DNA from: Deltaproteobacteria bacterium
GTDB lineage: Bacteria > Desulfobacterota > Desulfobacteria > Desulfobacterales > SURF-15
DNA length: 32,643 nt
NCBI GenBank assembly: GCA_024644775.1
Contig: JAHEHB010000009.1
Location: 1-32,643 of the forward strand
Direction of reading: 5' to 3'
A program made the position numbers and the translations under genes. Of the stretch, positions 6,208-29,442 are shown piece after piece (positions within the stretch are counted from its first letter, which is position 1; the number at the start of each line of letters is the position of its first letter). A model generated the notes under the pieces. That model saw only the letters and a list, made by a program, of their open reading frames with translations, searched no databases and was not told where the DNA came from.

Positions 6208-6470
6208 TTTTTAAAACCTGTATCGGATGGGAATTAAGAGATGGATTTAACTTAAAGCCTGCTTTTTTCTGATATAGAAAGTCATTCTATTTTTATAAAA
6301 TTTATTGGAATTTTGCAAGGTAGGGGCATAATGATACCTTAAAGTTTATTCGGTTTAAGATTACGATGTGTTGAACAGATAAATTCATCCAGAAAATTCC
6401 AGTTTAGGGTGACGACTTCTGCTATCGTACATCAAAATATCTTCATTGAACACGAAACAATATCAATCGT
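6208..6470. other. intergenic region upstream of the hybrid kinase
   Basis: This AT-rich region should hold the promoter of the hybrid kinase and the 3' end of the ECF operon transcript, since both are on the minus strand. An AT-rich hairpin (CTTAAA at 6338-6343 with TTTAAG at 6354-6359) is the only visible structure. It is too weak to call a terminator. No gene is supported here. Confidence 0.3.
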
Positions 6471-7130
6471 TTACTCTATCACTATAAAAACCAATACCAG
6501 CAAAAAGCCGACTCCAATTATCACCCAATCCCGGCCCCGCATTTCATACTCTTTTAGGAAGGTTCGCCCGGGACGACCGAAACCGCGTGCTTCCATCGCT
6601 TCGGCCAATTCCTCTGCCAGTTGAAAAGCTTGAATCAGAGTGGGACCAAAAAACGCCGGATAGTGTCGCAACGCAACCCAGCCAGGCTCGAGAGGGATAC
6701 CACGCGCTCGCTGGGCATCCAACACATTTTTCACTTTACGGCCCATCATCGGGACAAATTGTAAGGAAGTACTCATCACAAACGCGATCGTATAGGGCAG
6801 CCCGATTTTGACCAATGAATTTGCCATATCTTCAGGTGCCGTTGTGCTGAAAAAGGCGAAAAATACGGAAGTAAGCGCCAACAGCTTTACGGCTGAAAAA
6901 ACGGCGGCACTAAAATCAACGGACCACCATATCACTGCACCGAAAAATAACGACATGGGGATGACCAATCTTGCCCACCGCAAATATTCTCTTATTTTTC
7001 CAATGGCAATGATAAACAGAAATAGGAATCCATAAGAGATTGTAAGCCATGGAATTCGGCCCACAGACACCACACACGCTGCATAAAATAAGGCCAGAAT
7101 AAGTTTTGTACGAGGGTCTAATTGTTCCAT
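6471..7130 (-). CDS. ecfT: energy-coupling factor transporter transmembrane protein EcfT (CbiQ family)
   Basis: The product is the membrane T component that links the ATPase to the substrate-binding S component of an ECF vitamin transporter. It begins MEQLDPRTKLIL, the usual EcfT opening, and has about five or six hydrophobic segments. The coupling region carries two Ala-Arg-Gly motifs, QRARGIPLE and MEARGFGRPG, which dock into the ATPases. I chose the ATG at 7130, four bases after the stop of the ATPase gene. In-frame ATGs at 7160 and 7199 would overlap that gene and add residues absent from typical family members. The chosen product is 219 residues, close to the short end of the family. It is the last gene of the thiW-ecfA-ecfT operon. 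Confidence 0.93.
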   Translation of the reverse strand: MEQLDPRTKLILALFYAACVVSVGRIPWLTISYGFLFLFIIAIGKIREYLRWARLVIPMSLFFGAVIWWSVDFSAAVFSAVKLLALTSVFFAFFSTTAPEDMANSLVKIGLPYTIAFVMSTSLQFVPMMGRKVKNVLDAQRARGIPLEPGWVALRHYPAFFGPTLIQAFQLAEELAEAMEARGFGRPGRTFLKEYEMRGRDWVIIGVGFLLVLVFIVIE

Positions 7131-7134
7131 TGTT

Positions 7135-8772
7135 TCAGTTTTTGTCCGGATCATTTTCATGTGAAGCACGATACAGTCGAAATGCTTCCGTGGGTTCAAG
7201 ATGGGCCCTCTTCATAGCTTCATTATTTGCCATAACCTCCCACGGTTTTCCTCCAGCAGTTACCCGCCCTTCTGCCAGCAGCAACCATCGGTGCGCGTGT
7301 TGTTCCGCAAAGGCCAAATCGTGAGTGACCAATATCACAGCCTGGCCAAATTCCCGCAGTTTCGCCAACAGATCGCCCAAAGCGCGACGGAAATACCAGT
7401 CTTGGCCGGCTGTCGGTTCATCTAACGCCAAAACTGCTGGTCTTGCGGCCATGGCCGCTGCAAATGCGATTCGTTTTTTTTCGCCACCACTTAGACGAAA
7501 CGGCGCTCGATTTACCAAAGATTCAAGATGAAACAGCTGAACGAGTTCCTTCAGCCACAATTCATCGTAACAATCGAGGGCTTTCGGCCCTGCGCTGATT
7601 TCATCCCAAACGTTTAACTTAAAAAACTGGTTATTCGGGTTTTGAAAGGCAATCCCCACAAACTTTGCCAATCGGGAAACCTTGATTTGCCGGCTGTCTT
7701 GACCCTTAACAAAAACTCGCCCTCTAGAGGGGCGATACAATCCGTTCAAATGCTTAAGTAACATTGTCTTTCCGGCACCGTTTGCTCCAACGATGGCAAG
7801 ACATTCACCTTCAAACAAGGTAAAACTGATATCTCGCAATATCTGTTGTCTATTTAAGACAAAAGATAACTGCACCACTTCCAATACCGGCTGGGCGTTT
7901 TTTGAGATCGGTTTCGGAATATGAGGTTCTAATTCAACGGGCAGATGTGATTTGGAAATAGAAGATATTGCAGAGGCAACGTTTAAAAGGGGTTGCTGAA
8001 CCCCGAGTCTCTGCCCCACACGTGTTGATAACGGCAATTCCAATCCGTAAGGTTCCAAATCATGGTTCAACAACTCATCGGGCTGACCATCCATAGCAAT
8101 TCGTCCCTGGTGGAGTACAACCATCCGCTGAATATCGGGTACCGTATGGGGTAAGCGGTGTTCACAAATAACAACGCCTTTGCGGTTACGGTGAATCGAC
8201 CGGAGTGTTTTACGAACACGATGAACATTAAGCGGATCTAAATTGGCGTAAGGCTCATCTAAAACAAGTAGCTGCGGATCCAACGCTAATATGGCTGCAA
8301 TAGAAACGAGTTGCTGCTCTCCACCGGACAATTCTTGTGGATTTCTCGGAAGAAGATTTGTAAGGTTAACCAGCTCTGCAGTTTCGTAAATTCGCTCCTG
8401 AATTTTCTCTTTGGGAAACCCGAGGCTCTCCAGACCAAAAGCAATCTCATTGTGTACGGTACGATTAAATAGCTGGGCCTCGGGATTCTGAAAAACCATT
8501 CCGATTTGATGAAAAAGATCTCCTATAGACTGATTCAGTGTCGTTTTGCCGGAAACGCGAACCTCCCCCTGGAGTTTACCATCGTAAAAGTGCGGGATCA
8601 GTCCGTTAAAGGTTCGACAAAGAGTGGACTTACCGGAGCCGCTGGCTCCGCAAACCAGCAAAAATTCATCCGGCTTTATCTGAAGATCGACCTTGTCCAG
8701 CACCCACAGCGTATCCTGCTTGCGATACGCATACTGAAGTTGTTCGATTTCAAGAAAAAATTTTGATTCCAC
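7135..8772 (-). CDS. fused double ATPase of an ECF transporter (EcfA1-EcfA2 type)
   Basis: The product is 545 residues with two complete ABC ATPase domains in one chain. Domain 1 has Walker A GASGSGKST (42-50), signature LSGGEQQ (about 148-154) and Walker B LLVLDEP (about 168-174). Domain 2 has Walker A GANGAGKT (329-336), signature LSGGEKK (427-433) and Walker B VLALDEP (447-453), followed by the switch His in VTHDLA. A linker of about 50 residues joins them. It powers uptake through EcfT and the S component ThiW. Most ECF systems have two separate ATPase genes; fused forms are known in other groups. A GTG start lies six bases after the thiW stop, which indicates a tight operon. Confidence 0.94.
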   Translation of the reverse strand: MESKFFLEIEQLQYAYRKQDTLWVLDKVDLQIKPDEFLLVCGASGSGKSTLCRTFNGLIPHFYDGKLQGEVRVSGKTTLNQSIGDLFHQIGMVFQNPEAQLFNRTVHNEIAFGLESLGFPKEKIQERIYETAELVNLTNLLPRNPQELSGGEQQLVSIAAILALDPQLLVLDEPYANLDPLNVHRVRKTLRSIHRNRKGVVICEHRLPHTVPDIQRMVVLHQGRIAMDGQPDELLNHDLEPYGLELPLSTRVGQRLGVQQPLLNVASAISSISKSHLPVELEPHIPKPISKNAQPVLEVVQLSFVLNRQQILRDISFTLFEGECLAIVGANGAGKTMLLKHLNGLYRPSRGRVFVKGQDSRQIKVSRLAKFVGIAFQNPNNQFFKLNVWDEISAGPKALDCYDELWLKELVQLFHLESLVNRAPFRLSGGEKKRIAFAAAMAARPAVLALDEPTAGQDWYFRRALGDLLAKLREFGQAVILVTHDLAFAEQHAHRWLLLAEGRVTAGGKPWEVMANNEAMKRAHLEPTEAFRLYRASHENDPDKN

Positions 8773-18312: not shown

Positions 18313-20484
18313 CTAAACGCTTCCAAGCGCCTCTTTGACGCGTGCAGGCGTCATAGGAAGCTGTAAAAGCTTGGCTCCTGTGGCGTCGTGAATCGCTGTG
18401 GCAATAACACCTCCCATGTTAACGATGGCCGGTTCCCCACCGCCCTGGGGCGGTAAACTGTTGTTTTCGACTAAAACCGTTTCGATCTTTGGCAGCCACG
18501 AAAATCTTGGAATGGAATAAGTGTCGAAGTTGACATCAAGGATTTTACCGTTTCGAAAGTGGATCTCCTCACTCAGTGCATACCCCAATCCCATCGTGAC
18601 GCAACCCTCCATTTGGATACGCGCGCCTTCCGGATTCACAACAAACCCCATATCCTGTGCACAAACAATCCGCTTTACATCAACTGTACCGTTACGGCTG
18701 TCGACAGCAACCTCTGCCATCGTAGCCACATAGGCACCTGCATCAATGCTGCATGCAATGCCATAACCGCGACCACTGGGGGTTTTGGAGGGCATCCAGC
18801 CGAATTTTTTTGCGGCTGTTTTTAATACACCGATCATTCTTTTGTCTTTCAGCTGTTTTAAACGAAGTTCCAGAGGATCCACCTTTGCCTTTGAGGCCAT
18901 CAGATTAAAATGCAGTTCCCGTGCGTAGGTGTTGGTATTGTTGGCCGGTGCTCTCCACGCACCGACAGCAAAAGGGTGAGCACCTTGGTTCATCCCGCGC
19001 CAGCTTCCATAACACGCGATACGGTGATGCGGTATTTCATAAAACAGCTCACATCCCCGTCGACCGGCGAAATAAACATGATAGTCCCAGAATGCGATGT
19101 TCTTTCTTTCATCGAGTCCGGATTCTATCTTGACAATGGCAGCCGGCCGGTAGGTATCATAAAAAAATTCTTCATCGCGGCTCCAGGCGACCTGAACCGG
19201 TCGACCGGCAATTTTGGCCAAACGTGCCGCTTCCACCGCTTGCTGAGAAGCGGTTTTACCGCCAAAACCACCTCCCACAAAGGGTGTGATAATGCGAACC
19301 TGTTTCGGAGATACGTTCAATGCATCGGCGACCACTTGCTGAACCCTAAAGGGTGACTGCGTGGAGGCCCATATGGTTATCCGGTTGCCCTTGAATTGGG
19401 CGACCGCTGTGTGGGGTTCAAGGGGGGCATGGGCGACATAACTGTTCAAATACGTTTCAGAGAAAGTGACAGTGGCTTTTTCCTTGCCTATTTTCAGACG
19501 GCCCTCTTCAGAAGCGATATCCGGTGCCGGGGCTTTTTTTAAGAGATGATCAAAAATATTCATATCGTCAATGCCGGTCTGAGACTCATCAAATTGAGCC
19601 TTTATCCGGGCAAGGGCCGCTTCCGCTTCATCCGGGTATTCATGCAAAACAGCGACTAAATCACCATCACGGATGACATGTGCGCCTTTAATCCTCTGAG
19701 CATCAGAGATGTCGATGTTTTGCAACCCGGCTCCGTGGGCAGGGGGTCTCAAAATTTTAGCATAAAACATTCCAGGCAGACGAATGTCGCCGGCATATTG
19801 GGCCTGGCCGGTGACCTTTTCGTGTGCATCCCGCCGCAAATAGGAATTGCCCATGATTGTAAACTCTGAGACAGGCTTTAAGGGAGGCAATTCTTTCAAA
19901 TGTTTCTCGATGATCTTTCCTTTGGTGAGCTGGCCGTAAGTAACTCGACTAGAGGGTTTGGTGTTGTCGAATACCGTCCCGTTCTTCGTTTGCAGGCGTT
20001 CTATCGAACATTTTAGGTAGTCGGCTGCCAATCCTTTTAGGACGCCTTTCGCCTCGCATGCCGCCTCGCGAAGAAACACACCGAAATAACGTGTCGAAAG
20101 GGAACCGAATGTCCCCGCGTCCCAAGGACAAAGGTCCGTGTCCCCCATCACGATATCCACAGAATCATAAGAGACATCGAGTTCGTCTGCCAACATCTGT
20201 GGCAACGAAGTGATGGGTCCCTGGCCCATCTCGATTTTCCCCGTTAGGCAAGTGACGCGTTCATCGGTCCCTATTCGTAAAAAAGCATTGTAATCGGCGG
20301 GAATATTTTCTCCCAAAAACCCTTCCCGTCTCATCCGAGCCAGAAGAATGTCGTCTCCAACCGTGAAATATACGATGATTCCTCCTCCCAGGATCCCCAG
20401 ACGCTTGAGAAATTGTCTACGGTTCAAAGGTATCGTGGCGGTTATTGTGTCCCCGTCAATTTCCATATATTTGTCTTCTGACAT
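18313..20484 (-). CDS. molybdopterin-binding subunit of a xanthine dehydrogenase-family hydroxylase (IorB-like), Tat-exported
   Basis: The product is 723 residues. A twin-arginine signal (NRRQFLKRLGILGGG, about residues 21-35) shows folded export to the periplasm. Cofactor-binding segments include GKIEMGQGPITSLPQML near residue 83, FVGGGFGGKTASQQ near residue 405 and the C-terminal GGGEPAIVNMGG with the catalytic Glu. The Tat signal and the two-subunit gene pair match the isoquinoline 1-oxidoreductase beta-type group, which oxidises aldehydes or N-heterocycles; the substrate here is unknown. The start is GTG 20487 or ATG 20484. I prefer the ATG because the GGGGG stretch at the end of the upstream gene is then about ten bases away. 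No FAD subunit or cytochrome c gene is adjacent. Confidence 0.9.
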   Translation of the reverse strand: MSEDKYMEIDGDTITATIPLNRRQFLKRLGILGGGIIVYFTVGDDILLARMRREGFLGENIPADYNAFLRIGTDERVTCLTGKIEMGQGPITSLPQMLADELDVSYDSVDIVMGDTDLCPWDAGTFGSLSTRYFGVFLREAACEAKGVLKGLAADYLKCSIERLQTKNGTVFDNTKPSSRVTYGQLTKGKIIEKHLKELPPLKPVSEFTIMGNSYLRRDAHEKVTGQAQYAGDIRLPGMFYAKILRPPAHGAGLQNIDISDAQRIKGAHVIRDGDLVAVLHEYPDEAEAALARIKAQFDESQTGIDDMNIFDHLLKKAPAPDIASEEGRLKIGKEKATVTFSETYLNSYVAHAPLEPHTAVAQFKGNRITIWASTQSPFRVQQVVADALNVSPKQVRIITPFVGGGFGGKTASQQAVEAARLAKIAGRPVQVAWSRDEEFFYDTYRPAAIVKIESGLDERKNIAFWDYHVYFAGRRGCELFYEIPHHRIACYGSWRGMNQGAHPFAVGAWRAPANNTNTYARELHFNLMASKAKVDPLELRLKQLKDKRMIGVLKTAAKKFGWMPSKTPSGRGYGIACSIDAGAYVATMAEVAVDSRNGTVDVKRIVCAQDMGFVVNPEGARIQMEGCVTMGLGYALSEEIHFRNGKILDVNFDTYSIPRFSWLPKIETVLVENNSLPPQGGGEPAIVNMGGVIATAIHDATGAKLLQLPMTPARVKEALGSV

Positions 20485-20488
20485 CACT

Positions 20489-20962
20489 TCATCCCCCTTT
20501 CAATTTACTCGAGGCGCTTTCAATGGCCTGGATGATTCGTACATGCGCACCACAGCGGCACAAGTTGTCCTCCATGCCGTCAATGATTTCATCGCGGGAC
20601 ATTTTCGGGTTTTCTTTCAATAAACTGTATGCCTTCAGTATCATCCCGGGTGTGCAAAAACCGCACTGAAGGGCATCGTGCCGGATGAATGCCTCCTGAA
20701 GCGGATGCAAAACACCGTTCGCAGCTAAACCCTCGATGGTAACAACTTCCGCACCTGCGACCGCTTTAACAGTCGTTTGGCAGGAAAGCACCGCCTCATC
20801 ATTGACAAGTACCGTGCAAGCGCCACACAGACCTTCCCCGCATCCATATTTAGGGCCGGTTACACCCAATTCAGTGCGCAAAACCCACAAAAGCGTCCGT
20901 TCGCTATCCGTTTTCAAACTCACCGGGCGGTCATTGAGTTTAAACTGAATGGTTTCAATCAT
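20489..20962 (-). CDS. 2Fe-2S subunit of the molybdenum hydroxylase (IorA-like)
   Basis: The product is about 157 residues. The N-terminal plant-type ferredoxin domain binds one cluster through YGCGEGLCGACTV plus the later LSC. The C-terminal helical domain binds the second through CGFC and NLCRCG. This is the standard electron-transfer subunit of xanthine dehydrogenase-family enzymes. The AAAGGAGG ribosome-binding site (20969-20976) touches the first ATG (20968) but stands six bases before the second, so I start at 20962. The gene is followed after one base by the molybdopterin subunit, so the two are translationally linked. The small subunit has no signal peptide and presumably travels with the Tat-bearing large subunit. 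Confidence 0.93.
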   Translation of the reverse strand: MIETIQFKLNDRPVSLKTDSERTLLWVLRTELGVTGPKYGCGEGLCGACTVLVNDEAVLSCQTTVKAVAGAEVVTIEGLAANGVLHPLQEAFIRHDALQCGFCTPGMILKAYSLLKENPKMSRDEIIDGMEDNLCRCGAHVRIIQAIESASSKLKGG

Positions 20963-20968
20963 TGCCAT

Positions 20969-20976
20969 CCTCCTTT
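20969..20976 (-). promoter_or_regulatory. ribosome-binding site that decides the iorA-like start
   Basis: AAAGGAGG on the minus strand is a near-perfect Shine-Dalgarno sequence. It lies at zero spacing from the ATG at 20968 and six bases from the ATG at 20962, so the downstream ATG should be used. Confidence 0.75.
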
Positions 20977-21079
20977 GCTGCTAACCTCATATGAATTAGA
21001 TTTTCACCTCAGGCCGATAAATCTAAGAACGAATCTCAAATGAAATTATACCATCGATGTCAATAGGATCGGGGAAAAA

Positions 21080-23089
21080 TCATGTTTCATGGATTCTTCG
21101 CATCGTTTCTGAAAAAAATGAAATGGTAATCGTACAACCGGGTCCGTCATTGTTGGATGCCGTCACAGTCCCACCCATTAGAGAGATAAATTTTTTAACG
21201 AGCGCAAGACCGATACCGGTTCCTCCGGTATTTCGTGTAAGAGAATTGTCCACCCGGTAAAAATCATCAAAAACTTTTTTTAACGCCTGAGGAGGGATTC
21301 CGGGACCGGTGTCGCAAACCATAATGTTTACCTGCTTCTGATTTTGATCAATTCGGATGGTTATCTCATGTTGTTTTGCGGTTTTACTGAATTTCATGCT
21401 GTTTTCAATCAGATTGATCAGAACCTGGATCATCACTTCCCGATCATATTTGAACGGTTGAATTTTATCTATGTCAACATTCAGCACAAATCCCTCTTGT
21501 TTCAGTTTTTCCTGCATGACCGCCTGAACTTCCCGGATCACCTCGTCAAATGTACCGGTTTGCATGTCAAGTTGGCGTTGCTTTTTCTCTAGTTTTGAAA
21601 GCTCCAGAACATTATTGATTAAGCGGGAAAGCCGGGCACCTTCCGAATCTAAAATTCGAAAATATTCCTGTTCTCGCTCTTTATCTCGGGCGATTCCCTG
21701 CTCCAGCATTTCAATATACATTCGAATATTGGTCAACGGTGTTTTCAATTCATGGGTAACCGATGAAACAAATTGAGAGCGTCTCTCGGAGAGATCCACA
21801 ATGGTTCTGGCGCTCTGATAAATCGCGAAAAGCCCCAACAAAATAATGACCGCCAGAACAATTATCATTAGGTTTAACGTCCGTCGCCCTGCAGATCGCG
21901 GAATCTGATCACAGGTTAGCGTCGCATATAAAAAAGAAAACGGCGAAGGGAATGTTCGGTTGAGCACGAACTTCTGTCCATTTGCAGAAACACCGGCTTC
22001 AACGCTGCCGATTTCACGCCGCTGATCCACTACACGCAATCGCAAATTCGTATAGCGGGCCATGGGTTGTGATACGAAATAGGTCCCAGTAAGATGATCA
22101 AGAAACGCTTTTGTCTTGAGAATAAATCCTTGACGATAAATCTGGCTGTTAATCATGATCCGGCGGAATACAAAAATTTGATCGTCATTGATAAAAACCG
22201 ATTGCAATGGCGCCACCTCCACCTGGAAGCTATCGGCAGCGTCAACCTCGGTGGCGGAAGGCGGTTGAATAAAATCCTCCGTTTTGGCCCTAAAATTTTT
22301 TCGAGCCGGTTTGGCCTTTGCAGCAGCAGATGGTGCAGGGGCTATTCGATCCTTGGTCTCAATTAAGCTGCTTGCCCGATCTCTATTTTCTGCGGTTGAC
22401 TGTGGGGTTTTTTGGGGCTCTGCCATTTCTTGTTTGGCAATGTTTAATGCTTGGCCGACGGTAATTTTTTCATATCGTTTTTCCTTTTGTCCGAGATAGG
22501 CTTTGGGTTTTTGCGAACGCGATACATCCAGGTATTTACCCGCAAATTCGCTGGCTCGTTTCTTTTCCTCCACGGCCGATTCTTTTAGTGGTGATGGCGA
22601 TATTTTGTCTGTTGCCGCAACGCGTTTGCGGTTAAATATAATATTGGCATCTTTTAGTTGCTCCACCAGTACCATCCGCCCTGCCGACGGTTGTTCACCG
22701 CTCTCCCACAACGGTGATTGAAAAGAACCGTCCGGATTATTCTGAAAGTAGCCGAGTATAAAGTTGTCTTGCGGAAAATTTGATAGCGACGACCGAACCT
22801 CTTCGCCCAAACCTTGAGAACGGCCGGTTGATGAAATATAGTAATTGTATTCGTCTATCGCCCGTCCTTCCTCTCGCTGCACAAGGATCGTAAGGGCCTG
22901 TTCCATCTCCTCAAGTATCGTCTCTGCAAAATAGCGCAAAGTGGCGGCTTCTTCCTGTTGCAACCCCCGATAGGTCTGTACGACAAAAAAAACCAGCGGC
23001 ACGGACAGGGCAATCGAAAAAAAAACGATAAGTAGCTTCAGTCGTTTCAATTTTATATCACTTTCCCGGTTCCAGCCGATACCCCTCAC
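21080..23089 (-). CDS. membrane sensor histidine kinase (CpxA-like partner of the downstream-numbered regulator)
   Basis: The product is up to 669 residues. Membrane segments at about residues 18-38 and 405-424 bracket a periplasmic region of about 365 residues. Part of that region (about 155-290) is a low-complexity Lys/Ala/Pro/Ser-rich stretch, unusual for a sensor. The cytoplasmic part has the HisKA box SSVTHELKTPL with H446, N559/N563 in the N box, DTGPGIPP (593-600) and the GGTGIGLALV box. There is no clear HAMP domain. The GTG start at 23089 overlaps the regulator gene by 32 bases; a TTG at 23050, after the regulator stop, is an alternative. It forms an operon with the response regulator, and I infer that it controls the divergent VWA-PspA genes. 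Confidence 0.92.
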   Translation of the reverse strand: MRGIGWNRESDIKLKRLKLLIVFFSIALSVPLVFFVVQTYRGLQQEEAATLRYFAETILEEMEQALTILVQREEGRAIDEYNYYISSTGRSQGLGEEVRSSLSNFPQDNFILGYFQNNPDGSFQSPLWESGEQPSAGRMVLVEQLKDANIIFNRKRVAATDKISPSPLKESAVEEKKRASEFAGKYLDVSRSQKPKAYLGQKEKRYEKITVGQALNIAKQEMAEPQKTPQSTAENRDRASSLIETKDRIAPAPSAAAKAKPARKNFRAKTEDFIQPPSATEVDAADSFQVEVAPLQSVFINDDQIFVFRRIMINSQIYRQGFILKTKAFLDHLTGTYFVSQPMARYTNLRLRVVDQRREIGSVEAGVSANGQKFVLNRTFPSPFSFLYATLTCDQIPRSAGRRTLNLMIIVLAVIILLGLFAIYQSARTIVDLSERRSQFVSSVTHELKTPLTNIRMYIEMLEQGIARDKEREQEYFRILDSEGARLSRLINNVLELSKLEKKQRQLDMQTGTFDEVIREVQAVMQEKLKQEGFVLNVDIDKIQPFKYDREVMIQVLINLIENSMKFSKTAKQHEITIRIDQNQKQVNIMVCDTGPGIPPQALKKVFDDFYRVDNSLTRNTGGTGIGLALVKKFISLMGGTVTASNNDGPGCTITISFFSETMRRIHET

Positions 23090-23756
23090 CTCTGATGGTC
23101 AAGATAAAAGGGGTATTTTTGATCAGTGTGGCAATTTTTTTTCGGAGTTTGAGCATGTGGATATCAACGGTGCGTGTTTCGATATCTGCATCAGCGTAAT
23201 GCCAAACCTCTGTGAGAAGTTCCTTTTTGGAAACAATCCTCACCTGGTGACGATAAAGGTACATAATAATATCCATTTCTCTGCGACTGAGCTCCACGAC
23301 GCGATCGTCATATTCCGCTCTCAGATTTTTACCATCGAAGAAGACGCCTCTAAATCGGACTTCTTGATCCCCTAAATTTTTTCCTGTTCGCCGCAAAACT
23401 GCTTCCACCCGAACCATAACTTCTCTCAGCGAAAAGGGTTTGGGAATGTAGTCATCAGCCCCGGCCTTAAAACCGGTCACAATATCATCCTCTGAGCCTT
23501 TGGCCGTAATCATGATAATACCTTGATTGGGTTTTTTCTTGCGGATTTCCTTGCAAATCGCAAATCCATTTATGCTTGGCAGCATCACATCCAGCAGAAT
23601 CAAGTCATATGGGTTTTGCAGACCCGTTTTGAGTCCCTGCCCACCATCTTCGGCACCCTCGACGTCATAACCGTTAAAAACAAGCACATCCTGAAGCCCT
23701 TGTAGCAGGGCAGCATCATCCTCAACCACCAAAATACGCGCCTTGCGCTGATTCAT
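23058..23756 (-). CDS. OmpR/PhoB-family response regulator
   Basis: The product is 232 residues. The receiver domain has acidic E12/D13/D14, phospho-acceptor D56 in LILLDVMLP, T84 and K106 in YIPKPFSL. The C-terminal winged-helix domain (about 130-230) contains ELSRREMDIIMYLYRH, ETRTVDIHMLKLRKKI and the final ILTIRGEGYRLE hairpin of the OmpR type. It is the first gene of the two-component operon. GGGAG lies nine bases before the ATG. The intergenic region before it holds a GTAAA-N6-GTAAA repeat, the type of tandem site used by OmpR-family regulators such as CpxR, so both autoregulation and control of the divergent VWA operon are likely. Confidence 0.95.
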   Translation of the reverse strand: MNQRKARILVVEDDAALLQGLQDVLVFNGYDVEGAEDGGQGLKTGLQNPYDLILLDVMLPSINGFAICKEIRKKKPNQGIIMITAKGSEDDIVTGFKAGADDYIPKPFSLREVMVRVEAVLRRTGKNLGDQEVRFRGVFFDGKNLRAEYDDRVVELSRREMDIIMYLYRHQVRIVSKKELLTEVWHYADADIETRTVDIHMLKLRKKIATLIKNTPFILTIRGEGYRLEPGK

Positions 23757-23806
23757 CGGCTCCGTCTCCCGTTATCAGAGTTAATAAATTTTGAGGTCTC
23801 CAATAA

Positions 23807-23812
23807 ATTATA
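23807..23812 (-). promoter_or_regulatory. candidate -10 box for the two-component operon
   Basis: The minus strand reads TATAAT here, a perfect -10 hexamer about 50 bases before the regulator start codon. No good -35 box stands 16-18 bases upstream. That position overlaps the edge of the GTAAA repeat, which would fit an activator-dependent promoter. Confidence 0.4.
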
Positions 23813-23827
23813 CCACTTCTTCAAAAT

Positions 23828-23881
23828 TTCAAAGTAAAAGTTATGTAAAAAAACCCCTTGTTTTTTTTACACTTCTTTGAA
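23828..23881. promoter_or_regulatory. probable operator: GTAAA-N6-GTAAA inside a long inverted repeat
   Basis: The plus strand has GTAAA at 23834-23838 and 23845-23849, separated by six bases and therefore 11 bp apart, one helical turn. This matches the known CpxR box design. The same region is an imperfect inverted repeat: TTCAAAG (23828-23834) with CTTTGAA (23875-23881), AAGT (23838-23841) with ACTT (23871-23874), and GTAAAAAAA (23845-23853) with TTTTTTTAC (23862-23870). A further GTAAA lies on the minus strand at 23866-23870. It lies midway between the two divergent operons. Confidence 0.6.
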
Positions 23882-23908
23882 TTGCCTTTCGTCAGACTTG
23901 ATATAAAA

Positions 23909-23936
23909 TTAAGACACAACACCAAAACAGTATAAT
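23909..23936 (+). promoter_or_regulatory. candidate sigma70-type promoter of the VWA-PspA operon
   Basis: TTAAGA (23909-23914) and a perfect TATAAT (23931-23936) are separated by 16 bases and lie 30 bases before the VWA start codon. An alternative is TTGAAT (23877-23882) with TATAAA (23902-23907) at 19 bases. The operator-like repeat lies upstream of both. Confidence 0.45.
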
Positions 23937-23966
23937 CCATAACCAACCAACAGAAAGGGGAAAACC

Positions 23967-25403
23967 ATGGAAAAAAATCGCTTTCAATCATTTATCTTGA
24001 TCCTTCTACTAATCGCAGTAACCGGAGCAACCCTTGCTTATTCATCGGCAAAGGGGAAATCGGCGTTTTCGAACTCGCTTTCCGAGACGCGTAGGCCTGA
24101 AGCTTCACAACAAGAAATCGTAAAAATTTCCGGAAACCTGGTACAAAACAAGATTCTGCAGGGATCAGACGGAATCGTCAATCTGTCGCTGACCCTCAAT
24201 GCCCTTGATATTCAAAAATCTGAGAACACAGATGAGCACCATGTGGATATGGTAATCGTCCTGGATCGAAGCGGGTCGATGAGGGGTAAAAAAATCGAAG
24301 ATGCCCGACGAGCCATTTCAGATCTCCTGGATAGACTGACAGAAACCGACCGTATTGCCATTATCGCTTATTCGGATTCGGTTCAAAATTACTCCGGTCT
24401 CCTTAATGTGTCAAAAACCAATCGACATCGTTTAAAATCTATTATCAGCGGTATTCAGGCGGGTGGTGCGACCAACCTTGGGGCTGGGCTGCAGGAAGGT
24501 ATCAACACGCTGTTGTCAAGAATTCGTAATGGTAACACCGGCAAAGTTATTCTCATATCAGACGGACTTGCAAATAGAGGTATCACCAATTCGCAGGATC
24601 TGGGAACCATGGCCAGTGCCGCCATCGAAAACGAGTTTTCTGTAAGCACCGTCGGTGTCGGGTCAGCATTTAACGAGTTTCTAATGACGGCGATCGCAGA
24701 CAGGGGAACCGGTAACTACTACTATTTGGAAAACCCCAGTGCATTTGCAGAAGTATTTGAGAAAGAGTTTTACCACGCAAAAGCAACCATCGCCACCGGT
24801 GTTGCCGTTCATATTCCTGTCGACAATGCCATATCTCTGATAAATGCAGCCGGGTACCCGATTCAAATTCAAAATCGCCATGCAATTTTTTATCCGGGGG
24901 ATTTACGATCCGGGCAAGCCCGAAAACTGTTTCTAACGCTGCGGGTGCCCTCCCATGCAGAACAGAAATTCGAAATTGACAACATCAAAGTGAGTTATTT
25001 CCATAGCGGCCAATTGTTCGAGACACCGCTTACACAGGCGTTTAAGATTGCCTGTGTGAAAAATCGAAAAGAGGCCCACCTCTCAATCGATAAAGCGACC
25101 TGGACAGAAAAGGTACTTCAGGAGGATTACAACCGGCTTAAGCAGGAAATAGCCGGGGATATCAAAACCGGGAAAAAAAGAAGTGCCTTGAAACGCATCA
25201 ACAACTATTACGAGGAGCAAAAATCTCTGAATGACACCGTGGGGTCGGCAAAAGTAACCGAAAACCTAAATAAAGACCTCGAGGAATTACGAAATGTCGT
25301 TGAAGACTCCTTTCAGGGAGCTCCCGCGGCTGTGTCGCGCAAACAAAAACTAAATTCGAAATCTCTTCAATACGAGAGCTATAGCGGCAGACGACAAAAG
25401 TAA
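23967..25403 (+). CDS. secreted VWA-domain protein
   Basis: The product is 478 residues. A signal peptide or N-terminal anchor covers about residues 1-27 (FILILLLIAVTGATLAYS). The von Willebrand A domain (about 93-270) has the metal site DRSGSM at 100-105, the GGATNLGAGL threonine loop and ISDGLANRG. It is therefore a metal-dependent binding domain with a full MIDAS. After a beta-rich region, the C-terminal part (about 370-450) is helical and charged. The layout resembles bacterial inter-alpha-trypsin-inhibitor-like VWA proteins. An AAAGGGG ribosome-binding site stands five to six bases before the ATG. It is divergent from the two-component operon and 136 bases upstream of the PspA-like gene. 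I infer a role outside the membrane, sensing or binding partners during envelope stress. Confidence 0.9.
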   Translation: MEKNRFQSFILILLLIAVTGATLAYSSAKGKSAFSNSLSETRRPEASQQEIVKISGNLVQNKILQGSDGIVNLSLTLNALDIQKSENTDEHHVDMVIVLDRSGSMRGKKIEDARRAISDLLDRLTETDRIAIIAYSDSVQNYSGLLNVSKTNRHRLKSIISGIQAGGATNLGAGLQEGINTLLSRIRNGNTGKVILISDGLANRGITNSQDLGTMASAAIENEFSVSTVGVGSAFNEFLMTAIADRGTGNYYYLENPSAFAEVFEKEFYHAKATIATGVAVHIPVDNAISLINAAGYPIQIQNRHAIFYPGDLRSGQARKLFLTLRVPSHAEQKFEIDNIKVSYFHSGQLFETPLTQAFKIACVKNRKEAHLSIDKATWTEKVLQEDYNRLKQEIAGDIKTGKKRSALKRINNYYEEQKSLNDTVGSAKVTENLNKDLEELRNVVEDSFQGAPAAVSRKQKLNSKSLQYESYSGRRQK

Positions 25404-25539
25404 AAAAGGGATCAAAATCCAGTTTTTGATTTCGAAGCATTGATAGACAACTCACCTGATATATAACATCCAAAACACGAATTCCCGCCCGCAGTTGCCA
25501 GGCATGGCGAGCGGGTCGGAATTCGATTAGGAGGTAACA

Positions 25540-26103
25540 ATGGGAATCGCAACAAGGGTGTTGAGGATATTTAAAGCCGACATTCACGGCGTAATGGATC
25601 AATTAGAAGACAGGGGACTTTTACTCAAACAGTATCTTAGAGATATGGAAGAAGCTCTAACCCATAAAGAAGTCAGGTTAAAAAAACTGGATGTATCTCA
25701 AAGCCAAACACGCCTAAAACGTGACAACTATAATAAAGACATTGAAAAATTAGAGCAAGACCTTGAAGCGGCAATAAAAAGAGATAAGGACAATATTGCG
25801 CGATTGTTGATAAAAAAAATAAAACCGCTTATCCGGCTTCGAGATGATATCGAACGCCACATGAACGCTCTCGATCAGCAGATGGTTCAATTCAGCAACG
25901 GTTTCGACCAGCAACGTATGCAGTATCAGCAGCTTAAACAAAGGGCGACGGAATATTTCCATCAGGCAGATCGAAAAACATGGGAAGAAACCTTGACAGC
26001 CGTCACACCGGGGATGATTTCTCAGGAGCTGAGCGATGAAGAAATAGAATTTGAGCTTATCCAACGTAAAGAAGCAATGGTGGACAACAAGGGGGAAAAT
26101 TAA
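25540..26103 (+). CDS. PspA/IM30-family protein
   Basis: The product is 187 residues and almost entirely coiled coil. It starts MGIATRVLRIFKADIHGVMD, with an amphipathic N-terminal helix as in PspA, followed by the ED and YLRDMEEAL pattern of the first coiled coil. It is shorter than E. coli PspA (about 222 residues) and lacks part of the C-terminal helices. PspA/IM30 proteins coat and stabilise damaged membranes as ESCRT-III-like assemblies. GGAGG stands six bases before the ATG. The next gene starts two bases after its stop, so the two are tightly coupled. No pspB, pspC or pspF is present, so control must differ from the enterobacterial system. Confidence 0.85.
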   Translation: MGIATRVLRIFKADIHGVMDQLEDRGLLLKQYLRDMEEALTHKEVRLKKLDVSQSQTRLKRDNYNKDIEKLEQDLEAAIKRDKDNIARLLIKKIKPLIRLRDDIERHMNALDQQMVQFSNGFDQQRMQYQQLKQRATEYFHQADRKTWEETLTAVTPGMISQELSDEEIEFELIQRKEAMVDNKGEN

Positions 26104-26105
26104 CA

Positions 26106-26663
26106 ATGAAAACGATCTTGCGACCCATACGAGCAACCGTTTTTTTCGGTCTAATCTGCGGCCTCTCCTTCATTCCGCTTTTGGAAGGATTAAGCCATGT
26201 AATACCCTGGCCAAAGACCCTGACCCTTACGTTATGGATTTTTATGGCGGTCTATAGCTTTTTGTTGACGCGTTGGAGCGGAAGGAGCGTTTTGGTGATC
26301 GTTTTTCCATTGATGCTGATAATTATTTCACTTTTTTGGGTAGATTCAATTTCTCTTTTTTTGGTGCTTATGTTGGGGGTTCTTAGCTGGATTCGAAGTG
26401 GTATGTGTTTTACGAATCATATGGGAAGAAAAGTTTTTACCGAACTAATTCTAAGTACAGGCGGCGGAGCGCTTGTGATAGGTTTAACTCCTGCTTCGGT
26501 CTTGATCTGGCCCCTGGCCATCTGGATGTTCTTTTTAGTGCAGGCACTTTATTTTATGATTTTTGAAACAAATTTAGGCGAGAAAGAACAAATCGAACGA
26601 GATCCGTTTGAGCAGGCAAAAGTGAAAGCAGAAAAAATCTTATCAACCGAAGTTATCTTTTAG
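26106..26663 (+). CDS. polytopic membrane protein linked to PspA
   Basis: The product is 185 residues with about five membrane segments (residues about 10-30, 42-54, 61-90, 119-135 and 137-152). It ends in a charged cytoplasmic tail (about 155-185, EKEQIERDPFEQAKVKAEKI). I do not recognise the family. It starts two bases after the PspA-like stop codon, with GGGG about nine bases upstream, so the pair is almost certainly co-translated. A natural guess is that it serves as a membrane docking partner for the PspA-like protein, in the way PspB/PspC or LiaF-type proteins do elsewhere; that is inference only. A weak hairpin, CCGTT (26679-26683) with AACGG (26696-26700), may mark the end of the transcript. 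Confidence 0.75.
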   Translation: MKTILRPIRATVFFGLICGLSFIPLLEGLSHVIPWPKTLTLTLWIFMAVYSFLLTRWSGRSVLVIVFPLMLIIISLFWVDSISLFLVLMLGVLSWIRSGMCFTNHMGRKVFTELILSTGGGALVIGLTPASVLIWPLAIWMFFLVQALYFMIFETNLGEKEQIERDPFEQAKVKAEKILSTEVIF

Positions 26664-26741
26664 TTTGAAGTTGCCCCACCGTTTTGTTTCAATACAACGG
26701 CTATTGTGGTTTAGCTCCTTACCTGCTGATTGTTTGACTAA

Positions 26742-27173
26742 ATGGATCAGACGAGACTCTTCGGGTATATTTTGAGCAATTTTGATAAGTTAGGCAAAAA
26801 GGACTTTACAAATGCGCTGCGAATTCTCGGAGAGCCGCCAGAGTCGATTGAAGAAATCCTCTCAGCACCAATCGCACAGACAACGGAATTTGAACATGAA
26901 AAAAAGGAATCAAATTTTGTAAGTAATACTGTACACAATAATCGTTCGAGTGTCAAAACAAATATACTTTGTAAGAGAAAATCGATCGGTCAATATCGGA
27001 TTTTTCTCGGCGAATGGATGCAAGACGTAAGTCGGATTATATTTTGCCCTCAAAAATATCATCCGACTTACGTCAACAGGCACTCGAGTAAAACTGGGGA
27101 GGCGAAACTTGTGTTAAGAATCAATCTTTTTCCACCAACAAACCGGAGGCGCCGAATCCGCCGTCTACATTAA
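26742..27173 (+). CDS. doubtful ORF, possibly a 5' gene fragment
   Basis: The frame encodes 143 residues. The first 50 or so (MDQTRLFGYILSNFDKLGKK, then ALRILGEPPESIEEIL) look like a real helical protein. The rest has a random-looking composition, contains the two arms of the large hairpin at 27024-27074 and overlaps the convergent SDR gene by 53 bases. There is no ribosome-binding site before the ATG. I read it as a gene whose 3' part was replaced or lost, possibly with insertion of the palindromic element. It could also be a chance frame. Confidence 0.25.
   Translation: MDQTRLFGYILSNFDKLGKKDFTNALRILGEPPESIEEILSAPIAQTTEFEHEKKESNFVSNTVHNNRSSVKTNILCKRKSIGQYRIFLGEWMQDVSRIIFCPQKYHPTYVNRHSSKTGEAKLVLRINLFPPTNRRRRIRRLH
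27024..27074. repeat. near-perfect long inverted repeat (hairpin)
   Basis: GACGTAAGTCGGAT at 27024-27037 is the exact reverse complement of 27061-27074. The pairing continues inward through one mismatch and ATATTTT, giving a stem of about 22 pairs with a short loop around 27046-27051. No T run follows on either strand, so it is not a typical terminator, although it lies 47 bases beyond the 3' end of the SDR gene. It may be a small mobile palindromic element. Confidence 0.8.
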
Positions 27174-27888
27174 CGGTGTGCCCTACGATCCAGCTGCTCT
27201 CTTCCGAGGCCAAGAAGACCACCGCGTCAGCGATTTCCTTTTCTTGGCCATAGCGGTGTGCAGGAATAAGACGAAAATACGCGTTGCGGGTGGCATCATC
27301 ATGACATTCCCGGCTCATTACCGTATCCACCGGCCCTGGAGATACGGCATTTACATTGATTCCACTGCCGATAAGCTCCAGTGCCATCACTTTGGTAAGC
27401 AGTATGATACCAGCCTTGGAAGCACCGTAAGCCGCTCGGCCAAAACCGCCCCGTTCCCCGGAAATAGAAGCGATGTTGATAATTTTGCCGGAACGGTTTT
27501 CGATCATCGGTCGCGCAACCGCCTGACCGCATAAAAAGGTTCCAGTCAGGTTGGTATCGAGAACCCGCTGCCATTGGTCGAGTGTTGTTTCCATAAATGC
27601 TTTGGTGAGCCCCACACCGGCATTGTTCACGAGAATATCAATACCCCCAAAGCCTGTTATCGTCTCATCAATCATAGAATCGATCTGAGCTTTATCGCAG
27701 ATGTCAGCGACACAAGCTAACGCCTTTCCGCCTTCAGCCTGGATTTCGGCTGCCACGCGAACAGCGTTTTCCTTCACTACGTCAACAACGGTGACCGCAG
27801 CGCCTTCTTCGCTGAGACGGTGGGCGATTGTTCGGCCGATTCCGCGACCGGCTCCGGTGACGATAGCCACTTTTTTATCCAATCTCAT
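27121..27888 (-). CDS. short-chain dehydrogenase/reductase (FabG-like)
   Basis: The product is 255 residues. It has the classical SDR parts: NAD(P)-binding TGAGRGIG (residues 11-18), an acidic DVV after the second strand that favours NAD, NNAG (88-91) and catalytic S141, Y154 and K158 in YGASK. The C-terminus has the usual VNVDGGFGASG. The substrate is unknown; 3-oxoacyl or sugar alcohol oxidoreductases look alike. I start at ATG 27888 because GGGAAGG lies eight bases before it. The GTG at 27897 would touch that site. It stands alone, 38 bases downstream of the HtrA protease gene on the same strand. Confidence 0.92.
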   Translation of the reverse strand: MRLDKKVAIVTGAGRGIGRTIAHRLSEEGAAVTVVDVVKENAVRVAAEIQAEGGKALACVADICDKAQIDSMIDETITGFGGIDILVNNAGVGLTKAFMETTLDQWQRVLDTNLTGTFLCGQAVARPMIENRSGKIINIASISGERGGFGRAAYGASKAGIILLTKVMALELIGSGINVNAVSPGPVDTVMSRECHDDATRNAYFRLIPAHRYGQEKEIADAVVFLASEESSWIVGHTVNVDGGFGASGLLVEKD

Positions 27889-27926
27889 CACAATCACCTT
27901 CCCAACGCATGCCTTCGGTCACAATC

Positions 27927-29375
27927 CTATTTCGTGATCTTTATGACCAGAAAGCCTGCATTTGCCCGCTTAACGAACATCTGAATGGTTTCACCTTCGT
28001 TGACCTTGGCAACCGCTTCACTATAATCTTCGACACTCTTTACATCCGTGTGGTTAACCTCTTTGATGATATCCCTGACCATCAAACCTGCTTCAGCCCC
28101 TTTACTATCCGGTTTGACACCTGATACGATCACGCCTTCTTTTTCTGACAAATTAAACCGGCTTGCAATTTCAGGAGTGATGGCCTCAACTCGGATGCCG
28201 AGTTCATCCTCTTTTTGTTCTTTAAATCTTCGGGCGGAAATCTTATCTTCTTCTCGCTTGGCAATTTTCACTTGGAGCGCCATCGGCTTACGATCTCGGA
28301 ACACCGTAATATTGGCAACTTCACCGACATTTAACCCGGCAATCAATGTGGTCAGATCTCGAGTGGTTTCCACTTTTTTTCCGTTCACTTCAACAATGAT
28401 GTCTCGGGGTTTGATACCCGCTTGGTCAGCCGGATCACCTGAAAAAACCTCGGTAACCAGCACGCCCTCTCCGTTCTTAAACCCGTAGTATTCCGCAAGT
28501 TCTTTGCTGAGATCCTGAATCGCAACACCGAGCCAACCACGGGTAACCTCTCCTTTGGCCTTGAGCTGCTCGAGAATTCCACGCGCAAGATTGATGGGAA
28601 TCGCAAATCCGATCCCTTGTCCAGCGGCGACAATGGCCGTGTTAATCCCAACGACTTCGCCCCGAATATTGAGAAGTGGCCCCCCGCTGTTTCCCGGGTT
28701 GATTGATGCATCTGTCTGAATAAAATTATCATAAGGGCCGGATCCGATTACGCGGCCTTTGGCGCTTACGATCCCGGCCGTTACTGTATGGGACAATCCG
28801 AACGGGTTTCCGATAGCGACCACCCACTCACCCACTTTTACCGTATCGGAATCCCCCAATTCGGCGATGGGAAAATTGTTAGCAGACTTTATCTTAATGA
28901 GTGCGATGTCCGTGTTGGGATCTCTCCCAACCACTTCAGCATCGTATTCTTTTTCGTTTCTCAGGATGGCTTTAATCTGATCAGCGCCCTCCACGACATG
29001 ATTGTTCGTGACAATATAGCCTTCCCGATCGATAATAAAGCCTGAGCCAAGGCTCCTCTGTTTAAAATCTCGCTGCCGCTCCGGTCCAAAAAATTTGTCA
29101 AAAAATTCCCGCATCGGATCATCCTTATCAAAGGGCCCCCTAAAGTGACGAAAAACTCGGCCACCTCCTTTGATGGTTTTAACGGTCCGGATGTTGACCA
29201 CCGCAGGGCTGACCAACTCCGCAAGGCCGGTAAAATTTTCAGGCACCATCTTTACGGGTGGTGTGGCAGATCCAGTAATTGGAACAAAAAATAGATTAAT
29301 AGCGATGGTAAGACCGATCACCCATAATGGCGTAATCAGAAAACCACCGAACTGTAGTTTCTTTCGATCATTCAT
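27927..29375 (-). CDS. Do/DegP-family periplasmic serine protease (HtrA)
   Basis: The product is 482 residues. An N-terminal hydrophobic segment (about residues 11-32) acts as signal or anchor. The trypsin-like domain has H126 (TNNHVV), D156 (NTDIALIKI) and S230 (GNSGGPL). Two PDZ domains follow, at about residues 275-365 and 385-475, the second with the VSGVKPDSKGAEAGL loop. The enzyme degrades or refolds damaged envelope proteins. AAGGAG stands eight bases before ATG 29375, which decides the start; the open frame runs 20 codons further. It follows the DUF1844 gene by 67 bases. An envelope-quality-control role fits the neighbouring PspA-type module, though it lies on the other strand with no shared promoter. 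Confidence 0.95.
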   Translation of the reverse strand: MNDRKKLQFGGFLITPLWVIGLTIAINLFFVPITGSATPPVKMVPENFTGLAELVSPAVVNIRTVKTIKGGGRVFRHFRGPFDKDDPMREFFDKFFGPERQRDFKQRSLGSGFIIDREGYIVTNNHVVEGADQIKAILRNEKEYDAEVVGRDPNTDIALIKIKSANNFPIAELGDSDTVKVGEWVVAIGNPFGLSHTVTAGIVSAKGRVIGSGPYDNFIQTDASINPGNSGGPLLNIRGEVVGINTAIVAAGQGIGFAIPINLARGILEQLKAKGEVTRGWLGVAIQDLSKELAEYYGFKNGEGVLVTEVFSGDPADQAGIKPRDIIVEVNGKKVETTRDLTTLIAGLNVGEVANITVFRDRKPMALQVKIAKREEDKISARRFKEQKEDELGIRVEAITPEIASRFNLSEKEGVIVSGVKPDSKGAEAGLMVRDIIKEVNHTDVKSVEDYSEAVAKVNEGETIQMFVKRANAGFLVIKITK

Positions 29376-29442
29376 TGGGTATACTCCTTGTTGATCATAA
29401 ATCGAATTAATAACGGCACCGGATGGCATCGTCACATCCCGG

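Follow-up and report, generated by a model that had tools for sequence, protein, structure and literature searches.

How a PspA protein is recruited to the membrane and switched on is, to our knowledge, known for a few systems only. PspA is a bacterial relative of ESCRT-III, and five adjacent genes from a deltaproteobacterium raise the question of whether it can be part of a response that carries its own control. The genes lie in a stretch of 32,643 nucleotides, which we call the window, from Deltaproteobacteria bacterium (SURF-15, Desulfobacterales; assembly GCA_024644775.1, contig JAHEHB010000009.1, positions 1 to 32,643 of the forward strand). In the window, genes for a sensor kinase and a response regulator are divergent from an operon that encodes a VWA protein, a short PspA, and a membrane protein. 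We put the probability at about two in three that these genes form a self-contained, PspF-independent, two-component-controlled Psp-type envelope response, in which a tail on the membrane protein recruits PspA.

An earlier reading, made from the letters alone (the sequence-only reading), had claimed five open reading frames at 21080 to 26663. All five were found, with the coordinates and strands that it gave, and the frame for the membrane protein does begin 2 bases after the PspA stop codon. Domain searches and the layout agree with its description of a kinase/regulator pair divergent from the other three genes: HisKA/HATPase, Response_reg/Trans_reg_C, VWA, and PspA_IM30 all scored above the Pfam gathering scores, and a Pfam scan of the membrane protein found no family above the cut-off.

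Conservation of the unit in related genomes

A search of related genomes for the same five genes found that the arrangement recurs in deltaproteobacterial relatives, and so it is not due to chance. When genomes were scanned for the short PspA, 29 loci were found, 26 of them deltaproteobacterial, and the kinase and regulator were divergent from VWA in 21 of the 26. With duplicates removed, the regulator was divergently adjacent in 49 of the 60 deltaproteobacterial loci that could be judged and was not adjacent in 11; another 8 loci were not judgeable. The VWA, PspA, and membrane genes stood in that order in 53 of the 60. The 11 include L140, which has the kinase alongside and a short regulator frame, and L012, whose 1.8 kb of upstream sequence contains no regulator. 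A kinase orthologue (E up to 1e-100) was found elsewhere in 9 of the 11 genomes with a nonadjacent pair (in G417, the match spans the C-terminal 60% only) and in none of 19 genomes that lack the module. These counts bear out the idea of a self-contained unit with its own regulator: the sequence-only reading would have been undermined if the VWA-PspA set occurred mostly without the two-component pair, and it does not.

Of 291 genomes sampled from one order, 58 have the membrane gene (we took one of these, a 20-bit match in G338, to be spurious), and 51 have the short PspA with a score of at least 120 bits. The remaining PspA matches were two fragments at 64 bits and others at 50 bits or less. 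The membrane gene accompanies the short PspA in 50 of the 51 genomes, and in the exception PspA is at a contig end. Just 3 of 297 genomes in a phylum-wide draw contained the membrane gene, so the unit is concentrated in that order.

The unit recurs in sulfate-reducing relatives within the Desulfobacterota and in methane-oxidizing Methylococcales. Searching with the short PspA gave 14 matches in 151 genomes of the Methylococcales (the order of G020), including 9 at E of 1e-16 or better, and 8 matches in 15 genomes of the small order of G021, including 7 at 1e-12 or better. We read the gene order in 16 of these distant regions. The kinase and regulator genes lie beside VWA-PspA-membrane operons in L192, L201, L203, L204, and L205, and beside PspA-membrane-VWA operons in L193, L197, and L198. 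No VWA gene was seen in L194 or L199, L202 has no two-component pair, and L195, L196, and L200 are short contigs. L206 and L207 contain ordinary PspAs.

A bipartite element in the regulator-VWA gap

The gap between the regulator and VWA genes contains a perfect copy of a 55-bp bipartite element (Table 1). No copy was found elsewhere in the window, nor in 100 shuffles. Counting the window, the element is present in 51 of 53 regulator-VWA gaps. The starts of its two halves are 34 bases apart, except in L018 (33) and L143 (35). The element averages 1.33 bits per position, versus 0.32 and 0.37 in its flanks, and the block TTTGAATTG reaches 2.0 bits at each position. In 39 of the 51 loci, a -35 hexamer that starts at the TTG of TTTGAATTG lies 16 bases before a TAnnnT-like hexamer. 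As judged from the sequence, this layout would be the one expected of an activator that touches RNA polymerase.

The element is nearly private to the module. Exactly one copy (3 mismatches or fewer) was found in 44 of 61 module genomes, versus 0 of 19 control genomes, and each of the single copies sits at the module (contig and position compared by eye); in G387, the copy shares its contig with a PspA fragment. The reversed pattern had no matches in 80 genomes. The right half is present at the module within 1 mismatch in 50 of 57 genomes. The sequence-only reading would also have been undermined by a promoter to which the regulator does not bind; the dedicated, conserved element at this promoter favors the reading, as far as sequence goes. 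Beyond the module, right-half matches within 1 mismatch were few: the 57 module genomes had 11 and the 19 controls had 1, and reversing the right-half pattern gave 3 in the 76 genomes. These numbers do not support a large regulon. We inspected 6 of the 12 off-module matches: 3 are operator-like (L280, L281, and L282) and 3 are not. The left halves of the operator-like copies are poor, and L281 has one extra base between the halves. In L282 (region 3893 to 4769; G498), the copy, which has 6 mismatches over the whole element, precedes a secreted L,D-transpeptidase-like (YkuD) gene, which hints at wall remodeling in the regulon.

Where the genes have become separated, one half of the element tends to stay with each promoter, as far as the sequences tell. 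At loci without an adjacent pair (n = 10), the left half had a mean of 3.8 mismatches, versus 1.5 at loci with the pair (n = 51; P = 0.01, rank test). For the right half, the corresponding means were 0.8 and 1.6 (P = 0.09). The left half is still present at 0 to 3 mismatches in 4 of the 10 pairless loci (L012, L013, L019, and L022). Conversely, at the relocated pairs L245, L246, and L247, the left half alone remains, 103 to 146 bases upstream of the regulator. L248, L249, and L250 were not judgeable for retention of the halves, and L250 does hold a perfect left half. The pattern of splitting points to a division of labor, in which the left half works for the regulator's promoter and the right half for the operon.

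Among 13 distant loci with a recognized regulator, the best match to the core of the element, TGTAAAA-N13-TTTTTACA, lay in the gap between the regulator and the operon in 11, with 0 to 5 mismatches (there were ties outside the gap in L197, L198, and L204).

The element is also linked to a different type of VWA protein. A VWA_4 protein is encoded by the third gene of the operon in L193 and L197. The VWA_4 protein of the Methylococcales operon is 52% identical to VWA_4 proteins that are preceded by operator-like copies: four secreted VWA_4 genes have a right-half match upstream (1 to 4 mismatches), and the VWA_4 gene in L290 has no upstream right-half match. Of the 57 genomes that carry the unit, 6 have close VWA_4 homologues, compared with none of the 19 that lack it, and in G563 a VWA_4 homologue, in two pieces, lies directly 3' of the membrane gene. 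This DNA element and this accessory protein are thus connected in two phyla, by different routes, which suggests to us that the element is read by the regulator.

The short PspA and the tail of the membrane protein

The short PspA belongs to PspA_IM30 (49.6 bits versus a gathering score of 33.9, over residues 5 to 160). Compared with sequences from the PDB, it gave weak matches to Vipp1/PspA (best E of 0.0045). The sequence-only reading had described its neighbor as a five-span membrane protein. Instead, the predicted structure (mean pLDDT of 76) shows six long helices followed by a short C-terminal one. To judge from the positively charged residues that the sequence has at its N-terminus and behind helices 2 and 4, this tail is probably cytosolic.

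The tail contains a motif, DPFExAxxxAEKIL, which we scored by the aligned position of its phenylalanine, since our first regular expression was too strict. Of 58 membrane proteins that adjoin PspA, 57 retain the phenylalanine, and the remaining one is cut by the end of a contig. At six loci without a full PspA, it is kept in three (L122, L140, and L160) and lost in the other three (L156, L157, and L158), so that it is lost in three of the four loci that are cleanly without PspA. The distant homologues, whose membrane spans have diverged, keep a similar DxFxxAxxxAExxL, and the membrane-protein profiles of the two groups are homologous (hhalign probability of 98.3%, E of 1.7e-14). Because the phenylalanine is kept with PspA and lost in three loci that lack it, we infer from these alignments that the tail is a PspA-docking motif, with few loss events behind this proposal. 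Across 42 loci, evolutionary distances between PspA and the membrane protein had a correlation of 0.82, compared with 0.73 for the membrane protein and the kinase and 0.65 for the membrane protein and the regulator.

A sequence with 6 mismatches to the right half of the element lies upstream of the membrane gene of L160, in the gap between VWA and the membrane gene where PspA is missing; this is perhaps the membrane gene's own promoter.

The kinase, the regulator, and the VWA protein

By their Pfam domains, the pair is a two-component system with a HisKA and HATPase kinase and a regulator that combines a receiver with a winged-helix DNA-binding domain. No HAMP domain was found in the kinase by the Pfam scan. 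In the predicted structure, a single helix (residues 400 to 463) runs continuously from the membrane segment into the HisKA domain. No Pfam family was found in the sensor region either, which includes a strongly conserved stretch, GYFQNNPDGSFQTPL. Its low-confidence insert carries a conserved peptide, FADKYLDxSRSxxxKxYLGQKxKRVExIT, which is perhaps a protein-binding site. The annotated start of the kinase is in doubt: almost every aligned relative begins about 13 residues farther in, and with that start, the overlap with the regulator gene would vanish.

The VWA protein matches PF00092 (86.7 bits). The pattern DxSxS...T...D is complete in 56 of 63 sequences of at least 420 amino acids (window included); the other 7 have DxSxS and SDG, and the T pattern as written did not match. 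In L024 (4263 to 6065) and L025 (4845 to 6533), the regulator and VWA genes have a second, weakly matching VWA gene between them, and there the element is close to the regulator.

Proposed mechanism and alternatives

The sequence-only reading had the kinase sensing the periplasm, the VWA protein acting outside, and PspA with the membrane protein acting inside, which is compatible with the predicted topology. We propose that the kinase would sense a periplasmic signal and phosphorylate the PhoB-type regulator, which would bind the bipartite element between the two transcription units. With the right half abutting the -35 hexamer of the VWA-PspA-membrane operon, binding would turn the operon on, and the left half would serve the regulator's own promoter. 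The VWA protein would act in the periplasm. The six-span protein would reside in the inner membrane, where its cytosolic tail helix would recruit the ESCRT-III-like short PspA to the membrane face, and the recruited PspA would stabilize or remodel the membrane. There is good support for the architecture and for its private operator: the unit, the element, and the tail are conserved at the sequence level and in part lost or split together. DNA binding, docking, the stress signal, and the membrane-repair output are what knowledge of the families and the anatomy of the unit would lead us to expect.

Several observations weigh against this proposal. L160, which is without PspA, retains DRFEIAR in its tail; L122 and L140 retain the tail with a mere remnant of PspA; and the three losses of the tail may be one event. 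The distance correlations partly reflect shared ancestry, and other pairs of proteins are as high or higher (0.90 for VWA and the kinase). As for the regulatory half, 2 of the 11 genomes with a nonadjacent pair show no kinase orthologue, 17 of the 61 module genomes have no element within 3 mismatches, and the relocated pairs L241, L243, and L244 have neither half near the regulator. Among the distant loci, L029 and L199 have a better match to the core elsewhere, and the match in L204 is weak (5 mismatches).

The membrane protein might instead be a transport or assembly partner of the VWA protein, with regulation as described above and with PspA as an accessory that protects the surrounding membrane. 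We consider this rather doubtful. VWA and the membrane protein do occur without PspA in L156, L157, L158, and L160, and the element is retained in L156, L158, and L160, which are the three of these loci with a readable gap; yet the tail phenylalanine is lost in three of the four and in no other full-length aligned membrane protein, and the PspA and membrane genes are neighbors in both operon orders. It is also improbable, in our view, that a phosphate- or cell wall-type system (PhoB/PhoR or WalKR) recruited the operon, with nutrient or wall status as the signal rather than membrane damage. Among NCBIfam models, the kinase comes closest to PnpS, WalK, and PhoR and the regulator to PhoB, and one possible extra target is the YkuD gene, but all of these models are below their cut-offs, the element has mostly one target per genome rather than a large regulon, and the output includes an ESCRT-III-like membrane protein. 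Finally, the five genes might be independently useful, with no common function, and neighbors merely by descent: most of the loci come from one bacterial group, so shared ancestry inflates their co-occurrence. This seems very hard to credit, as the gene order, element, and spacing hold despite mean pairwise identities of 40 to 51% for four of the proteins (69% for the regulator), the kinase and the operon co-occur even when apart, and distant loci keep the unit, some with a different gene order and a different type of VWA.

Returning to a Psp-type response in which the tail recruits PspA, we lean slightly toward a broader view: that this is a second widespread Psp architecture, a trans-envelope module found in Desulfobacterota and Methylococcales. 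In it, a six-span protein would recruit an ESCRT-III-like PspA by a portable tail motif, a periplasmic VWA protein would couple the module to the outside, and a private two-component system would act through a bipartite operator, with exchangeable VWA and VWA_4 subunits wired to the same operator.

Table 1. Positions of the genes, DNA elements, and protein segments of the unit in the window
Feature	Positions	Strand	Basis or remark
Sensor kinase	21080-23089	-	HisKA 437-501, HATPase 549-658; large periplasmic sensor
Periplasmic sensor region of the kinase (residues 36-400)	21890-22984	-	Conserved GYFQNNPDGSFQTPL; low-confidence insert
OmpR/PhoB-type response regulator	23058-23756	-	Response_reg/Trans_reg_C
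Bipartite operator-like element, 55 bp	23830-23884	.	CAAAGYAAAASTTATGTAAAA-N13-TTTTTACAYTTCTTTGAATTG, 0 mismatches
Left half of the element	23830-23850	.	Still found 5' of the regulator gene at three loci where the pair has moved
Right half of the element	23864-23884	.	Still found 5' of VWA where no pair is adjacent; final TTG opens the putative -35
Putative sigma-70-type promoter of the VWA operon	23882-23909	+	TTGCCT 23882-23887, 16-bp spacer, TAAAAT 23904-23909
VWA protein	23967-25403	+	N-terminal hydrophobic segment (signal or anchor, by eye); MIDAS-type motifs
Short PspA/IM30-family protein, 187 aa	25540-26103	+	PspA_IM30; distinct subfamily
Conserved C-terminal segment of PspA	26038-26079	+	EEEVELELLQRKEAL type
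Six-helix membrane protein	26106-26663	+	No Pfam family; C-terminal tail inferred to be cytosolic
Tail helix DPFExAxxxAEKIL, putative PspA-docking motif	26601-26648	+	End of the membrane protein

Neighboring genes

Past the end of the kinase gene is a large open reading frame (18313 to 20968, minus strand) that by eye resembles the large subunit of a molybdenum hydroxylase, adjoined by a [2Fe-2S] subunit. On the other side, 3' of the operon, are a 143-amino-acid open reading frame (26742 to 27173, plus strand), which has no Pfam match and may be spurious, and, on the opposite strand, a trypsin-like protease with PDZ domains (27927 to 29435, minus strand; HtrA/DegP type by its domains). Farther away (3520 to 8772, minus strand) are a PAS hybrid histidine kinase and then a CbiQ-type protein and a two-domain ABC ATPase, which are perhaps an ECF-type transporter.

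Comparison with known systems

According to the main text of PMC9239133, the core PspABC genes have a conserved genome location beyond the Proteobacteria only in Desulfobacterota. Neither VWA nor von Willebrand appears as a word in the main text of the two PSP genome surveys, PMC11237479 and PMC9239133. Among the matches listed, the titles and opening lines of abstracts in the open-licence PMC literature on PspA-VWA, on PSP comparative genomics, and on phage shock and two-component systems in Desulfobacterota contain no description of the unit.

Like the classical Psp system (PspF-PspABC) of proteobacteria, the unit has a membrane-protein partner and a member of the PspA family that probably acts as the effector at the inner membrane, but its control would lie with a two-component pair and a dedicated element. 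The sequence-only reading had noted the absence of PspF and PspBC. This stands at the locus, where none of the nine proteins scanned (20489 to 29435) is PspF, PspB, or PspC, but not genome-wide: elsewhere in the 53 module genomes searched, classical PspF was above its cut-off in 20 and PspC in 21. Thus, the unit stands alone or beside a classical system. All 21 genomes scanned had a PspA_IM30 match, and in 8 of the 18 deltaproteobacterial ones, the short type was the only one. The short PspA scored 21.9 bits against the NCBIfam phageshock_pspA equivalog, whose cut-off is 242.95 bits.

The pair had also been called CpxAR-like. A kinase with an OmpR-family regulator and the envelope theme are indeed shared with CpxAR, but the kinase scored 121 bits against NCBIfam's CpxA model (PRK09470; cut-off of 486), and the regulator scored 139 bits against CpxR (cut-off of 341). 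Models of the PnpS/WalK/PhoR type (for the kinase) and of the PhoB type (for the regulator) scored higher than these, yet were also below their cut-offs. The HAMP linker is a feature of CpxA, and given the missed cut-offs and the lack of HAMP in the Pfam scan, a likeness to CpxAR in particular is not supported. The mostly single-target operator is another difference.

Two-component control of a PSP-type output is described in the main text of PMC11237479 for Actinobacteria, which have PspC-fused kinases and PspA-PspAA with a two-component system. The kinase described here has no PspC domain, and its operon adds the VWA and six-span genes. A parallel in outline is LiaFSR-LiaIH of Bacillus: as described in the main texts of PMC9239133 and PMC11237479, a two-component system controls the PspA homologue LiaH, which is made together with the membrane anchor LiaI. 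The shared theme is a PspA homologue that is under two-component control and is coproduced with a membrane protein. The unit differs in its OmpR/PhoB-type regulator, in its six-span partner without a Pfam family, and in its periplasmic VWA protein. None of the five proteins matched a Pfam family of the LiaF or Toastrack type, and the short PspA scored 21.7 bits against NCBIfam's LiaH model (cut-off of 380).

Overall, the unit works like Lia in outline, yet it falls short of the models and gene sets used here to recognize Lia, classical Psp, and Cpx. It suggests that PspA, along with a periplasmic VWA protein, has been put under a private two-component system. The unit puts a name to an operator and to a partner and offers a short candidate for a docking motif, so that recruitment and regulation can both be tested directly in what appears to be a second, hitherto undescribed type of response to membrane stress.

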